DNA from: Candidatus Electronema sp.
GTDB lineage: Bacteria; Desulfobacterota; Desulfobulbia; Desulfobulbales; Desulfobulbaceae
Direction: 5' to 3'
DNA: 64,000 bases
NCBI GenBank assembly: GCA_026645415.1
Contig: JAPEVH010000034.1
Location: forward strand, 1-64,000
This document shows positions 25,021 to 41,775 of this stretch, in pieces. The stretch's first letter is position 1. Each line of letters starts with the position of its first letter. The notes beneath the pieces are model-generated. The model did no database searches. It worked only from the letters and a program-made list of their open reading frames with translations, and was not told the DNA's origin. Made by a program: the position numbers and the translations under genes.

Positions 25021-25049
25021 TTGCTGCTGATCACTAGGCAAGTCCCAAA

Positions 25050-35883: not shown

Positions 35884-35917
35884 CCTCCTGATCATTTTGA
35901 TCAGGAGGCTTTTTTTA
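35884..35917 (+). terminator. Rho-independent terminator of dsrMKJ
   Basis: A perfect stem CCTCCTGATCA/TGATCAGGAGG with a TTT loop is followed by CTTTTTTTATTTT. Confidence 0.93.
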
Positions 35918-36003: not shown

Positions 36004-36702
36004 ATGATCGACAACTTGATGCAGCCTAAACGCATTCTTGTTCTCTACTATTCTTTCAGTTCTCAGACTAAAAAACTTGTTCAGTCCCTGCTTGATGGTA
36101 TGGCTGAATATGAGGCAGAAGTAGTTTGCGAGCGCATTGTTCCGGCCATTCCGCAGCATTTTCCTATTGGCACTATTCCCAAGACGATCAAGAAAATGAT
36201 CGTTACTCTATTCCGGCAACGTGTTCCAATTGAACCGCTCCCTAGGCATTGCTTTGAGTCCTATGATCTCATCCTCTTGGCTGGGCCAACGTGGTCCTAC
36301 AATCCTAGCGGGCCAGTGCTCTCGCTCCTTGATCGGGACGGAAAACAACTTTTTGGCCAGCAGGCAGTGATTCCAGTCATATCCTGCCGGGGTTTTTGGC
36401 GGCTGCACTGGTGGGGTATAAAATCCTTACTTAAACGGCTGGGAGCACGAGTGCCAAACGGCATCATCTTTACTCATACCAGTAAAGAACCGTGGTGTAC
36501 CATTGGCGTATTCCTCAAACTAGCGGGCGAAACACCAGAGCGGTTGTCTTGGATGAAAGAGCATTACCCAAAATATGGCCATACACGGCAACAGCTTGAT
36601 GAAGCACGCCGTTTTGGGGAGATGATTGCCAGAGCAGTGACCCAGAACCAAGAGCTAGAACGGTTGGAGTTCAACACGCAACTGGCACTCTATGAGAAGT
36701 AA
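36004..36702 (+). CDS. Flavodoxin-like NAD(P)H-dependent oxidoreductase
   Basis: A 232-residue protein with a flavodoxin fold. The FMN phosphate loop is YYSFSSQTKKL near residue 16, and LLAGPTWSYNPSGPV matches the second FMN loop. A conserved SCRGFWRLHWWGIKSLLKRL segment follows. The partner and substrate are unknown, but a quinone or nitro-compound reductase is plausible. It is monocistronic, downstream of the dsrMKJ terminator. A Met codon at residue 6 could be an alternative start. Confidence 0.8.
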   Translation: MIDNLMQPKRILVLYYSFSSQTKKLVQSLLDGMAEYEAEVVCERIVPAIPQHFPIGTIPKTIKKMIVTLFRQRVPIEPLPRHCFESYDLILLAGPTWSYNPSGPVLSLLDRDGKQLFGQQAVIPVISCRGFWRLHWWGIKSLLKRLGARVPNGIIFTHTSKEPWCTIGVFLKLAGETPERLSWMKEHYPKYGHTRQQLDEARRFGEMIARAVTQNQELERLEFNTQLALYEK

Positions 36703-36922: not shown

Positions 36923-39367
36923 TCAGCAGTCATGGCCTTTCCCGACAGAAATGACTGCCATCTCATGCGCCAACGCTTTGGTGGGGCACGGCTTAGGCAT
37001 TGTAGGCATCTTGTGGTGGTCGGTTGCTCCACTGCTGACGGAATCCATATTATGATGGTCAAGATCATCGCGGGTGACAACAAACTGCCGCATCATATCA
37101 TGATCCTCATGCTCCAGCAGATGGCAGTGGTAAACATACCTGCCAAGGTAGCCGTCGAACTTAGCCGCCACTTCCACCATCTCACCGGGATTGACCCGGA
37201 TGGTGTCTTTGAGGCCCTTCTCGTTTTCGTCAAGTTCGCTGTCATTCTCATTAATACGAACAGTATAGCCAGTTTTAAGATTACCAGTTAGACTTAATAT
37301 CAAATCTCCAATCTTTGGAAATTTGGAGATGATAACTTCACCTGTAGATGTAGATAAAGCATTTTTCAAATTGTCCCCGATATCATCTTCTCCCCAATCT
37401 ACAATGATTTTATCAATCAACAATTTGCCTTGATCCGTAGTGTATAGGATCGGAGCGTTAGGTGTGATCGAGTAAATACCCTTGCGTGTGACCCCTTGGA
37501 ACTGCACAAGGTGCATGTGCATTGGGTGAGTATCTGCTGTCAGGTTGATGAAACGCCATTTCTCAGTGCTTCCGTATTTCACCATGTAACTGACAGGGTC
37601 TTGAAAGCGTTCGGCAACTACAACATACGTATCACCATCAACCTTCACAGTCTTGGTTGTCGTCAGGATAGGGTCATCTTTTGAAAGTGTCTCAGGGTTT
37701 TCTAATTCCCACAGCACCAGCATAGGCCCCATAGAAGTTTTTTTCTCAACAATCGCCACGGTGCGTACTAGATCTTTGTCTTTTTTCCAGTCAGGCTTCT
37801 CAGTATTGAAAGAATTTCTCGGATCATTCCTTAGCTCATTGAAGCTGCTGATGAGATTCTGGAAATTATAAGGAGAAGCAGGTTTTGCACCAACCTTGAA
37901 CATCATAACCTGCGGATAGGGTGTTCGATCAGGACACTTATCAGGATCAGTGACATTGTCATGAGCAGGGTCATTATAATCAATATAATCATTCGTATTG
38001 AGTCGATTGATTGCATCAATATGATATTTTTTATTTGCAAAAGGAGCTTCAGCAGTATTGAGCAGGACAATGTTTTTTCCGCTAAAAAGAGAAAAGTTGA
38101 CTAAAATATCGGCCCGCTCCGCTGGAGACAGAATGAGTTCGTTGTTTAGCTGAACAGGTGCTTGCAGCAAACCTCCATCTGTTCCAATTTGCTGAATAAA
38201 GAATGGACAGGTTTCAATCCCCGGTGTATTTTCATTATTAATAAGCGTATATCCTGTCACCACGCCATTGTTATCACATTCAGCAAGGGCAAACTGTAAC
38301 CGATAGGTTCTGGAATTAGCACCATTCAGAATGCGCAACCTGTACCAGTCAGCATCAACTTTAGTGAACGGCCAAATCTTTCCATTAACCAGCGTCAATG
38401 GGCCAAAGAACTCAAGAGGGCCGTGTTCAGGAGAACTCGGATTGTTTCGATCATCTTTGGGAGGATGATCATAGCCTTCTACCTTGTGCAGGAGGCGAAC
38501 CTTTGAGTTATTGAAAATAAGAGAGGAGTTAAGTTTTTTGCCTTCTATCGTATCAACAAGAAGTTCACAAGGATTATTTTGCTGCAACGGATTAGTTGTG
38601 CCATCCTTGCTGACGGTAAGATTGCGGTCTTGAATAATGAGGGGGATTGTTCTTTCAGGGCTAGGCAAATTCAAGCCTTTTTCTTCCTCATCCGTGATAA
38701 TCCACGCACCAGCTATGCCTGCGAAAGCATGGAGGCGGGTTGTGTGCATGGCATGATCATGATACCAAAGCAGGGTTGCACGTTGGTTGTTTTCGTAGGT
38801 ACTCAAATGCTTCTGGCCAGGCACAGTAGTATGATGTCCGGGTGCTGGATGCTGACTTGGCATGAGCATTGTTTCAGGCCAGCCGTCAGAATGAGGAGCA
38901 ACCTTTCCACCGTGCAAGTGCGTTGAAAAACGTCCTTCACAATCATGTCCATGAGTTGTATCTACATATTCATGACCATGTTCACAGGTATATTTTTCAA
39001 CTCCAAGAACATTCTGTGGAATAGTGCCATTAGCTTCAGCTAAATCCGACCGAATCGCAGGACACGGAAGATGATCTGCTTGGCAAAGACCATTCTCCCA
39101 GCTAATATAGACAGTCTGGCCTTTGCTGACAATGATGGAAGGCCCTGGATATTGGCCATCACCATTTTCCTCATCGGTGTATCCCCAAATCGGCACAGTA
39201 ATGATATTTCCATTTATTCTATCTTGTTCGTCTTTATATATTTTCGCTATTCCCTTCCTGATATAGATGGACTGAATATGATTTTTATCTTTATTTCTTA
39301 AATCAAGTGCTTTTGGAGTTTTTAACTCCGTTACGAACGGTTTGATGACATCAGTAATCTTGGCCAT
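36923..39367 (-). CDS. Large multicopper oxidase, CotA-like
   Basis: An 814-residue blue copper oxidase. Copper-site motifs are HLHGG, LLWYHDHAMHTTR, HPMHMHLVQFQ and the C-terminal YHCHLLEHEDHDMM, which supplies type-1 and trinuclear ligands. LWYHDHAMHTTRLHAFAGIA resembles the CotA/bilirubin-oxidase branch. It is much longer than CotA (about 510), with extra sequence between the cupredoxin domains. The open frame extends 82 codons upstream, but ATG 39367 follows AAGGAG and starts MAKITDVIKPFV. No Sec or Tat signal is visible at that start, so cytoplasmic location or unconventional export is implied. It could reduce oxygen, but the substrate is unknown. Confidence 0.88.
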   Translation of the reverse strand: MAKITDVIKPFVTELKTPKALDLRNKDKNHIQSIYIRKGIAKIYKDEQDRINGNIITVPIWGYTDEENGDGQYPGPSIIVSKGQTVYISWENGLCQADHLPCPAIRSDLAEANGTIPQNVLGVEKYTCEHGHEYVDTTHGHDCEGRFSTHLHGGKVAPHSDGWPETMLMPSQHPAPGHHTTVPGQKHLSTYENNQRATLLWYHDHAMHTTRLHAFAGIAGAWIITDEEEKGLNLPSPERTIPLIIQDRNLTVSKDGTTNPLQQNNPCELLVDTIEGKKLNSSLIFNNSKVRLLHKVEGYDHPPKDDRNNPSSPEHGPLEFFGPLTLVNGKIWPFTKVDADWYRLRILNGANSRTYRLQFALAECDNNGVVTGYTLINNENTPGIETCPFFIQQIGTDGGLLQAPVQLNNELILSPAERADILVNFSLFSGKNIVLLNTAEAPFANKKYHIDAINRLNTNDYIDYNDPAHDNVTDPDKCPDRTPYPQVMMFKVGAKPASPYNFQNLISSFNELRNDPRNSFNTEKPDWKKDKDLVRTVAIVEKKTSMGPMLVLWELENPETLSKDDPILTTTKTVKVDGDTYVVVAERFQDPVSYMVKYGSTEKWRFINLTADTHPMHMHLVQFQGVTRKGIYSITPNAPILYTTDQGKLLIDKIIVDWGEDDIGDNLKNALSTSTGEVIISKFPKIGDLILSLTGNLKTGYTVRINENDSELDENEKGLKDTIRVNPGEMVEVAAKFDGYLGRYVYHCHLLEHEDHDMMRQFVVTRDDLDHHNMDSVSSGATDHHKMPTMPKPCPTKALAHEMAVISVGKGHDC

Positions 39368-40028
39368 GACCTTTCTCCTTCTTTTAGATAGTTGACAGAG
39401 TTCGGTAAACCAATCATCAGCCTGCTTGTCTTTCACAGCAGCAGATATTAGATGAAAGCTAATATAATTAAAGCGCAAAATTAAGTGGATGTAAAGGGCA
39501 GCAAAAAATGTATCTTGAAATGAAGCTGAGTTTGTAGGATGCTGGGCGTGGTCAAGGGGATTCTTGCCAACATGCGGAGCACAACTCTTTTTTGTCAAGA
39601 ACAGAGGCGGCAAACTGGAACCGTTCGAGAAAGTCTCAAACGTAGGATCGAGTTTTTCTCAAACACTCGTTCGGGGGGAAGGCAGATGGAGAGAAGGAAA
39701 AGGTACAGGGAATGCAGGCAAACTTGCTGCGTAACATCAGTTAGTGCGCCACTGCTATGGTTGTGTAAAAAATATCCATCTAGCTACAGCAGTACGGATA
39801 TAAAGTATCCATGCCTCTTCAAAACAAGAAACATTCCTATTTCTATTAAACATTTTTATGCTGCTATAATAATATATTGATACACAGGCAAAAAAACAGA
39901 ACAAACTGGCACGGTTCTAGCAATCAAATATTTTGATATAAAACTATCAAAGCATCAAATAATTAACTTGCAAATGAAATGGCATTTATTTAAATGCCAT
40001 TTATTTTTTTATTTTCTAGGAGAAGATT
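39368..40028. other. Long divergent intergenic region
   Basis: About 660 bp between the multicopper oxidase (minus) and the PilJ-like gene (plus). No convincing coding sequence is present. Its last 50 bp hold a perfect intrinsic terminator pointing toward the PilJ-like gene. Sequence between about 39770 and 39970 is strongly AT-rich and could contain promoters for a short leader RNA. Confidence 0.5.
39977..40010 (+). terminator. Leader terminator before PilJ-like gene
   Basis: A perfect 11-bp stem AAATGGCATTT/AAATGCCATTT with a 4-nt loop is followed by ATTTTTTTATTTT. The ribosome binding site and ATG (40029) come 18 bp later. No plus-strand gene lies upstream, so it ends either an attenuated leader or a small RNA. 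Confidence 0.8.
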
Positions 40029-40925
40029 ATGCTTCATCAATCAGTTCGTAAAAAAGTTTTTTATTTGCTCACCGCTGCCTTAACTATGTTTTGCTCAGAA
40101 GTGTCTGCTAATGCTTCTGCACAGGATGTTCATGAATTAGCAGATATCTGTATGTATTCGCAGCGTATTCTTAAAGACTATGCCTTGGTTGGCATGAGTG
40201 TAACGTATCATGATCCAAAAAAAGATTTAAAAGAAAATATCAACATCGTCGATAAATATTTTAAAGATATTGAAGGGCATAAGCTGAATGAAAAACTTTT
40301 GGCCGAGGTCCTCGAAGTAGAGAATTCTTGGAAGGCCATCAGACCCGCATTTGAGCAGGAGCCGGACAAGAAAAAAATGAGCGAGCTGCGCGAGAAAGTT
40401 GAAGCATATACAACTCGCTGTGATCAGGTAGCTGATGATCTTGCCAAAGACACTGGCATTAAGGGTGAGCAAGATGTGGTGTTAGTCTCTGAGCTAGGGC
40501 TAGAATCACAGCGGTTAGCTGCTTTGTATCTGATGAAAGCGTGGGGTGTAGCAGATACTAGCTATGAGAAAGAAGTAGCACAGACTGTGGATCAGACAGA
40601 GCATCTTTATCAAGAATTGATGGCAGCAGATGAAAAATTTGTCTCTAAAGATATCAAAGACAAGCTGAAAACCACAGAAAATGAATTTATTGCCTTTGGT
40701 GTAATGGCAAAAAGCACATCAGGTCGCTTTATGCCCAGCATGGCTGAGAAGAGTGCGAGCAAAATCTTTACTACGCTGCGAGAAATTCTGGCGATGGAAC
40801 AGAAGCTCGTCGAAGCAACTGTTTCAGGATATTTTACTCCAGTAGCAGACGAGAAAAAGAACAGAGGAATGATCCTCAAAGATATAATAACACTTATTCA
40901 GTACAGAGAGGAGGAGTCGGCATGA
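40029..40925 (+). CDS. Exported PilJ-type sensor-domain protein (1)
   Basis: A 298-residue protein with a signal peptide (VFYLLTAALTMFCSEVSANA) and two helical PilJ-N-like segments. The first contains MYSQRILKDYALVGM, the second LESQRLAALYLMKAWGV, both variants of the PilJ core QRMLSQRxxKxYxLxG. There is no transmembrane or signalling domain, so the sensor module exists as a free periplasmic protein. A good AGGAG box precedes the ATG. It overlaps the next gene by 4 bp (ATGA). It likely works with the chemosensory cluster downstream, which is inference. Confidence 0.78.
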   Translation: MLHQSVRKKVFYLLTAALTMFCSEVSANASAQDVHELADICMYSQRILKDYALVGMSVTYHDPKKDLKENINIVDKYFKDIEGHKLNEKLLAEVLEVENSWKAIRPAFEQEPDKKKMSELREKVEAYTTRCDQVADDLAKDTGIKGEQDVVLVSELGLESQRLAALYLMKAWGVADTSYEKEVAQTVDQTEHLYQELMAADEKFVSKDIKDKLKTTENEFIAFGVMAKSTSGRFMPSMAEKSASKIFTTLREILAMEQKLVEATVSGYFTPVADEKKNRGMILKDIITLIQYREEESA

Positions 40926-41716
40926 AACGAGTAATAGCTTTAAAGGGTGCTGCGGCAACCTTAATTTTTTACAGCCTTGCCACGGGCAATGCAGCAGCTA
41001 ATCTTGATCAGCATGATCTTGAAATGCTGAAAACTGCTAAAAACGTAGAAATCGTCAGCCAGAAAATTGCTAAGGCGTATTTCTACAAACACATGGACAT
41101 TCGGCGTGAGCTTGCAGATAAAGATCTAAAAGAGAGTCTGGATCAGCTCAAGAATGACCTGCTTACTCTTAAAAAGGGTATTACTGGTAAGGAAGAAACA
41201 AATGTCAGTAAATTCCTTACTTATACCGGTGATGAACTGGATCAAGCCTTAGCAAAACCGTACAGCAAAGAGTCTGGGGCACTGATGATCGACTTTAGCG
41301 AGTCATTGCTTGAAGGAGCAGACTTTCTCTCCACCAAGCATGGTAAGGGGAAGGATGGCGAAGTTGGTATGTTGACCCAAGTTGAAAATTTGCTTTTCCT
41401 GCTGGAGCGAGTCAACAAGTACTATATTGCCCATAAGGCTGGATTCAAAGACTACAACAATGTAGTTCAGCTAGAGAATGCTGTCGCTGATTTTGAAAAA
41501 GGGTTAGCTAAAATCAATAGCTATGGCCATTATCCTCTTCCTCTCCAAGATAGTGTTAAGAAGATTAACAAATTTTGGCCAGTAGCCAAGGAGTTTTATC
41601 TTGGTGTACAGCAAAATGCCTTACCTGTGATTGTTCTTGCGTCCACAGATAAGTTAGAGCAGGAAGTGAATGCCTTGGTCAAGTTCCATCATCAAGAGGC
41701 TGAAAGAGAGAACTAA
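40922..41716 (+). CDS. Exported PilJ-type sensor-domain protein (2)
   Basis: A 264-residue protein with a signal peptide (IALKGAAATLIFYSLATGNA, cleavage near AAA) and a helical PilJ-N-like body (KNVEIVSQKIAKAYFYKHMD, AGFKDYNNVV). It is translationally coupled to the preceding sensor-like gene and probably its partner. It contains no HAMP or MCP domain. A bidirectional terminator follows. Confidence 0.75.
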   Translation: MKRVIALKGAAATLIFYSLATGNAAANLDQHDLEMLKTAKNVEIVSQKIAKAYFYKHMDIRRELADKDLKESLDQLKNDLLTLKKGITGKEETNVSKFLTYTGDELDQALAKPYSKESGALMIDFSESLLEGADFLSTKHGKGKDGEVGMLTQVENLLFLLERVNKYYIAHKAGFKDYNNVVQLENAVADFEKGLAKINSYGHYPLPLQDSVKKINKFWPVAKEFYLGVQQNALPVIVLASTDKLEQEVNALVKFHHQEAEREN

Positions 41717-41741: not shown

Positions 41742-41775
41742 AAAAGGCCGTAACCAACAAAGGTTACGGCCTTTT
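41742..41775. terminator. Bidirectional terminator
   Basis: AAAAGGCCGTAACC pairs with GGTTACGGCCTTTT (14 bp, loop AACAAA), with A- and T-runs on either side. It serves the PilJ-like pair (plus) and the two-CW gene (minus). Confidence 0.92.

Follow-up and report, generated by a model that had tools for sequence, protein, structure and literature searches.

A probable leader stem-loop behind a predicted sigma-54 promoter at a PilJ-like gene pair of Candidatus Electronema

The promoter of Klebsiella nasF is of the sigma-54/NtrC type. The nasF leader is the site of antitermination by the ANTAR protein NasR; ANTAR targets are described as a pair of hairpins whose hexaloops have A1 and G4, with one of the pair overlapping the terminator (PMC3369931). 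Stabilising 5' stem-loops are known from ompA, papA and aprE (works cited in PMC3997798). The published sigma-54 consensus is YTGGCACG-N4-TTGCW, with TTGGCACGGTTTTTGCT as the Geobacter version (PMC2725144). A literature search on cable bacteria combined with sigma-54, RpoN or riboswitch found nothing on topic, and gene control in these organisms seems to be little described in the literature searched.

The window analysed here is the whole stretch of 64,000 nucleotides of DNA from Candidatus Electronema sp., a cable bacterium. A sequence-only reading had pointed out a hairpin with a T-run ahead of a PilJ-like gene, and had proposed an attenuator, a riboswitch expression platform or a small RNA end. 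The hairpin and the genes that follow it are:

39977-40002, plus strand: the reported hairpin, an 11-bp stem with a 4-nt loop (stem scan, fold, shuffles)
40003-40017, plus strand: U-rich tail ATTTTTTTATTTTCT (sequence, terminator scoring)
40029-40925, plus strand: first gene, a 298-aa helical PilJ-like protein with a putative signal peptide, judged by eye (ORF, domain search, model, fold search)
40922-41716, plus strand: second gene, 264 aa, with a sub-threshold PilJ match and a 4-bp overlap with the first (ORF, domain search)
41742-41775, no strand assigned: 14-bp inverted repeat AAAAGGCCGTAACC...GGTTACGGCCTTTT, the likely operon terminator (by eye; d-score negative with a hand-set end)

The hairpin reads AAATGGCATTT-ATTT-AAATGCCATTT and is followed by ATTTTTTTATTTTCTAGGAG up to the ATG at 40029. 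All 11 pairs found in the stem scan are Watson-Crick, and only three of them are G-C. The region 39930-40060 folds at -25.5 kcal/mol (z -3.2), which one of 200 shuffles equalled. Dinucleotide-preserving shuffles of the 660-bp intergenic region produced a stem of at least 11 pairs anywhere in 6 of 3000 cases, and with a T-rich tail in 1 of 3000; for the predicted 96-nt leader the figures were 18 and 6 of 10000, respectively. The hairpin sequence has no second copy within the window at up to three mismatches or genome-wide at up to two. The hairpin is real and no chance product. The perfect 11-bp stem with its T-run was thus borne out by stem scan, fold and shuffles. The reported distance of 18 bp to the start codon is right for the T-run, which ends about 17 nt before the ATG, but not for the stem, which ends 26 nt before it.

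We scanned 462,950 bases of the genome, namely the window and 20 sampled stretches, for perfect stems (at least 9 pairs, 6 T in 9) and obtained 14 strand-specific matches at 12 places. Six of the 14 lie no more than 50 bp behind a same-strand ORF, whereas the reported hairpin has a start codon some 26-27 bp downstream and stands behind just a mechanical 113-aa ORF (39539-39880), which is probably spurious. Upstream, the first plus-strand ORF that we count as a gene is 3.3 kb off, with its end at 36702; the shorter mechanical plus-strand ORFs between 36702 and the hairpin are mostly antisense to an oxidase gene. There is also a 25-codon open frame at 39974-40051, which begins 3 bases before the hairpin, spans it and overlaps the gene start out of frame. 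We set it aside as an upstream ORF since no Shine-Dalgarno sequence is visible.

The two proteins match the PilJ domain PF13675 with 16.1 and 16.4 bits, below the curated cut-off of 26.6. The model of the first protein is all-helical, with a mean pLDDT of 80. PilJ, NasR and McpN are within its top seven matches among solved structures, none of them significant (none at E ≤0.001). The nitrate-binding N-box of McpN is given as [IVL]-[ND]-x-A-G-x-Q-R-M-L-[ST]-Q (PMC6381276). By eye, the first protein lacks this motif: DICMYSQRILKD and LGLESQRLAALY keep Q-R, without A-G. Given the missing N-box and the non-significant fold matches, we rejected a nitrate-sensing role.

Proteins that share 72-78% identity with the first gene product occur in four genus-mate genomes (Candidatus Electronema aureum GS, 'Desulfobulbus sp. 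F5', S01.Bin068 and UBA5173); for the homologues of named Candidatus Electrothrix the identities are 60, 61 and 69%. What we call the Electrothrix group comprises E. aarhusensis (L021), E. gigas (L023), E. marina (L025) and the genomes G021 (S24.Bin023), G029 and G035; the latter three belong to one other genus of the family, and their group label is inferred from the protein and its neighbourhood. Homologues of 49-57% identity occur in seven loci of Gammaproteobacteria bins (L024, L026-L031), which may point to gene transfer. Upstream of the PilJ-like copies in L007, L010, L012 and L023, a recurring intergenic element was seen by eye; it has a strong hairpin, CACCCC-loop-GGGGTG or the inverse, and ATATGAAAGT-like repeats.

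The sequence-only reading had spoken of a 660-bp leader. This figure is the intergenic distance to a divergent gene, if the oxidase gene is assumed to begin at its ATG (39367), and not the length of a leader. The features of the divergent region are:

36923-39367, minus strand: multicopper oxidase gene, divergent, on the other flank of the intergenic region (ORF, domain search)
39763-39777, plus strand: 15-bp dyad GTGTAAAAAATATCC, the distal one of two candidate activator (bEBP) sites (alignment, pattern search)
39796-39810, plus strand: dyad GGATATAAAGTATCC, the proximal candidate activator site (present in 5/5 genus genomes)
39828-39844, plus strand: block aligning with the conserved GAAACGTTCTCATTGTC of other species (genus alignment)
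39907-39922, plus strand: predicted sigma-54 promoter TGGCACGGTTCTAGCA (11/12 consensus positions)
39933-39950, plus strand: small 6-bp hairpin with a hexaloop at the predicted transcript 5' end (fold; start inferred from the -12 element)
40018-40022, plus strand: Shine-Dalgarno-like AGGAG (by eye)

When the upstream DNA of the five genus genomes is aligned, the invariant columns are concentrated mainly in three blocks, namely the two dyads, the GAAACGTTCTCATTGTC block and the predicted promoter. The predicted promoter has GG at -24, GC at -12 and ten bases between them, and is otherwise near the consensus. A GG-N10-GC promoter lies at one shared aligned place in 5/5 genus genomes, with 11 matches to the 12 consensus positions in the window, 11 in S01, 10 in UBA5173 and 8 each in E. 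aureum and F5, a score of 8 not being rare on its own. By comparison, 11/12 was reached at 6 of 797,300 background positions and 10/12 at 88. The site reads CTGGCACGGTTCTAGCA, close to the Geobacter sulfurreducens RpoN consensus, but has TAGC for TTGC in the -12 region (comparison with PMC2725144). The pattern TGGCACN7GCA occurs at 31 places genome-wide and its reversed control at 15; since this is only an approximately twofold excess, the pattern alone proves little, and the case for the promoter rests on its position in the alignment. All five genus genomes encode rpoN. The sigma-54 activator domain PF00158 has eight strong matches (E <1e-71) and three weak ones in this genome, but it also matches in 14/14 control genomes, so that only match strength argues for activators and the weak matches are meaningless.

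The dyads take the form GAGTA-N5-TACTC or GGGTA-N5-TATCC in the other genus genomes. They occur as pairs spaced 31-33 bp in 4/5 genus genomes, S01 having the proximal dyad only. The dyad pattern gave no pairs and 29 single sites in 797,900 background positions, a measure of rarity rather than an independent test, as the pattern was derived from the same sequences. In the six loci of the Electrothrix group that were searched, it does not occur. The GAAACGTTCTCATTGTC block upstream of the promoter is conserved in the four genus-mate loci (L017-L020) and diverged in the window; it may be Fur-box-like.

From the position of the -12 element, we infer a transcription start near 39933. The predicted 5' UTR is 96 nt long, with the hairpin at +45 to +70. 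The sequence thus does not predict a start beyond the hairpin, which the sequence-only reading had named as its own refutation.

The hairpin is a near-perfect palindrome of 26 bp close to the sigma-54 start region, and might act as a DNA operator that binds a repressor or an activator. This is very improbable: the palindrome is single-copy in the genome at up to two mismatches, and ten related genomes have no exact copy and two-mismatch copies at five places in four of them, none in the examined loci of the PilJ-like gene. On the same counts we rejected the palindrome as a repeated or shared element.

The terminator d-score is rough, because a hairpin at 25049, 29 bp behind an ORF, scored negative; the hairpin behind the operon also scored negative with its hand-set end, and the window's hairpin at 35884 scored 11.2. 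The 8-bp core TGGCATTT/AAATGCCA with TTTATTTTTTT, a stem containing G-C directly before the U-run, rates as a terminator with a score of 8.9. Neither the full 11-bp form (-14.4) nor the minus strand (-59.7) reaches a positive score, and only the plus strand rates as a terminator. The terminator is not kept as such in relatives, the best d-scores being -29 to -62 in 4/4 genus-mates. Termination thus appears possible in this species, yet it would not be a shared function.

These scores bear on regulated attenuation, in which sigma-54 transcripts would normally stop at the hairpin and some RNA-binding protein would permit read-through, as NasR does on Klebsiella nasF. The G-C-based stem with its U-run rates as a terminator, the terminator-like hairpin in a leader resembles that of nasF, and NasR and PilJ/McpN are among the (non-significant) top fold matches of the first protein. 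The negative scores in all four genus-mates argue against it, as do folds of growing 5' ends, which gave just a weak transient hairpin that uses the 5' arm and is gone once the full stem forms; we rejected an alternative antiterminator pairing on this result. ANTAR proteins were found in none of eight genomes (G021, G029, G035 and five of this genus, among them the genome of the window, which is 93% complete). An identical search detects them in 44/118 genomes of the phylum, and no control matched in the eight-genome run. The one predicted hexaloop of the leader, UAAAAC, is without the A1 and G4 of ANTAR targets. The locus therefore differs from nasF as described in PMC3369931 in protein, hexaloops and conservation of the terminator. 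We rejected ANTAR attenuation on the protein search, and consider a regulated attenuator of any kind unlikely.

A small RNA from the sigma-54 promoter could also end at the hairpin, the genes beyond it then being expressed by read-through. In favour of this, about 75 nt separate the predicted start from the end of the terminator. The body of such an RNA is poorly alignable in the genus, however, the other species lack the terminator, and STnc240-like Rfam matches are weak, far below cut-off and present on both strands. We regard this reading as improbable.

No Rfam family reached its gathering score in the whole window, and in the leader no match came close to a cut-off with E values of up to 10; we rejected a riboswitch in the leader on these grounds. 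The search for an aptamer upstream of homologous genes that the sequence-only reading had suggested was fruitful in the Electrothrix group but not in the genus. Among 20 related loci searched, a c-di-GMP-I riboswitch (RF01051) was found upstream of the homologous gene in 5/6 Electrothrix-group genomes. The loci are L006 and L022 (one genome), L008, L011, L021 and L025, one match being of the c-di-GMP-I-UAU type. Located riboswitches are:

L008, 1190-1268: c-di-GMP-I riboswitch
L011, 1064-1142: c-di-GMP-I riboswitch
L021, 3610-3688: c-di-GMP-I riboswitch
L022, 2642-2721: c-di-GMP-I riboswitch
L025, 3560-3638: c-di-GMP-I riboswitch

The Electrothrix-group riboswitch begins 263-476 nt before the start codon. 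Unlike these leaders, neither the window nor the four genus-mate loci L017-L020 have the aptamer at the PilJ-like gene (L019 offers only 326 bases upstream). Sigma-54-like sites with 9-10/12 matches lie further upstream of the Electrothrix-group riboswitch, or in E. gigas without one; three of them have GT in place of the -12 GC. They are weak evidence because 9/12 sites are common (236 in 398,950 bases, both strands).

The Electrothrix-group aptamers are what would make the hairpin the expression platform of a relic or unrecognised riboswitch. Against this stand the empty Rfam searches of window and leader, and the leader itself, which at 96 nt and 22% G+C is poorly alignable in the genus. 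We find this reading scarcely credible.

Riboswitch numbers differ between the genomes, as judged from up to 150 scored candidates in each. We counted at least 21 c-di-GMP-I riboswitches each in G021, G029 and G035, and at least 27, 10 and 9 in the Electrothrix-group genomes G057, G058 and G059, respectively; the genomes of this genus (G000-G004) have at least 3, 4, 1, 2 and 0. The counts suggest an expansion of c-di-GMP-I riboswitches in one cable-bacteria genus.

Although the stretch from promoter to start codon aligns poorly among the genus genomes, a stem-loop is present in all five leaders at a similar place. Its 3' edge lies 26 nt from the start codon in the window, 33 nt in E. aureum and F5, and 30 nt in S01 and UBA5173. 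The folding energies are -10.9 kcal/mol in the window, -9.3 in E. aureum, F5 and S01, and -14.1 in UBA5173, and the fractions of 150 shuffles that did as well are.007 (window),.047 (E. aureum),.027 (F5),.10 (S01) and.007 (UBA5173). The leaders of E. aureum and F5 are near-identical, leaving four independent leaders rather than five. A hairpin of -9.3 kcal/mol or better occurs at that place in 20 of 130 genes of this genome, the PilJ-like gene included (the set has genes with a free upstream region and mechanically picked start codons); among the 17 AT-rich leaders of the set, only the PilJ-like gene has one. From 20/130, four independent leaders would all have such a hairpin by chance with a probability of about 0.0006, given a threshold that was chosen afterwards to equal the weakest hairpin.

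When the search range was widened to 20-60 nt, a stem-loop was present in 5/6 leaders of the Electrothrix group. The shuffle fractions (of 80) are.05 in L021, 0 in L022,.0125 in L023 (assumed to be the first copy),.0375 in L025 and.0375 in L011, several of these stems being close kin. The first copy in G035 (L008) has no stem-loop in its leader (.75), and the stem-loops of four later gene copies in the group are not outstanding (.675,.3,.2 and.075). Base-pair covariation was no better than in shuffles for the genus and Electrothrix-group leaders; pair counts gave a single two-sided change in the genus, between S01 and UBA5173, while the Electrothrix group had none. We dropped covariation as proof of the stem. 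The comparison of leaders thus supports a shared position of the stem-loop, and does not support covariation.

Taken together, we favour, with a probability of roughly one half, a 5'-UTR stem-loop behind a sigma-54 promoter, with a protective or insulating role and perhaps partial termination in this species. An enhancer-binding protein on the dyad pair, 110-145 bp upstream, would switch on the promoter and give rise to the short 5' UTR of about 96 nt, whose last part would run from the stem-loop over a single-stranded U-rich spacer and the Shine-Dalgarno sequence to the ATG of the first PilJ-like gene. By analogy with known leaders, the stem-loop would protect the 5' part of the mRNA against decay of the RNase E type and keep the ribosome site unpaired. 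Such a leader stem-loop, kept for position and folding rather than sequence, is most likely the conserved role, be it mRNA protection or ribosome-site insulation. Partial termination is suggested for this species because its stem has a G-C base beside the U-run, which may halt some polymerases and hold the output at a constant, reduced level. The arrangement resembles ompA, papA and aprE in having a stem-loop in the leader before the ribosome site, but theirs are described as 5' or 5'-terminal (titles cited in PMC3997798); the hairpin here lies about 45 nt in. What stands of the sequence-only reading is a hairpin in the predicted 5' UTR with a core that passes the terminator score; its riboswitch and regulated attenuator are not supported.

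A broader scheme would have the operon controlled twice, by a sigma-54/activator promoter and by leader RNA, with leader control swapped between a c-di-GMP riboswitch in Electrothrix and a terminator-type attenuator with a novel antiterminator in this Electronema species. We consider it decidedly improbable.

As a structure, the hairpin is ordinary. The neighbourhood around it provides a testable regulatory map, in which a predicted sigma-54 promoter and paired proposed activator sites precede a gene pair that both genera of cable bacteria possess, and the c-di-GMP riboswitch at the homologous gene in one genus ties second-messenger signalling to the operon.
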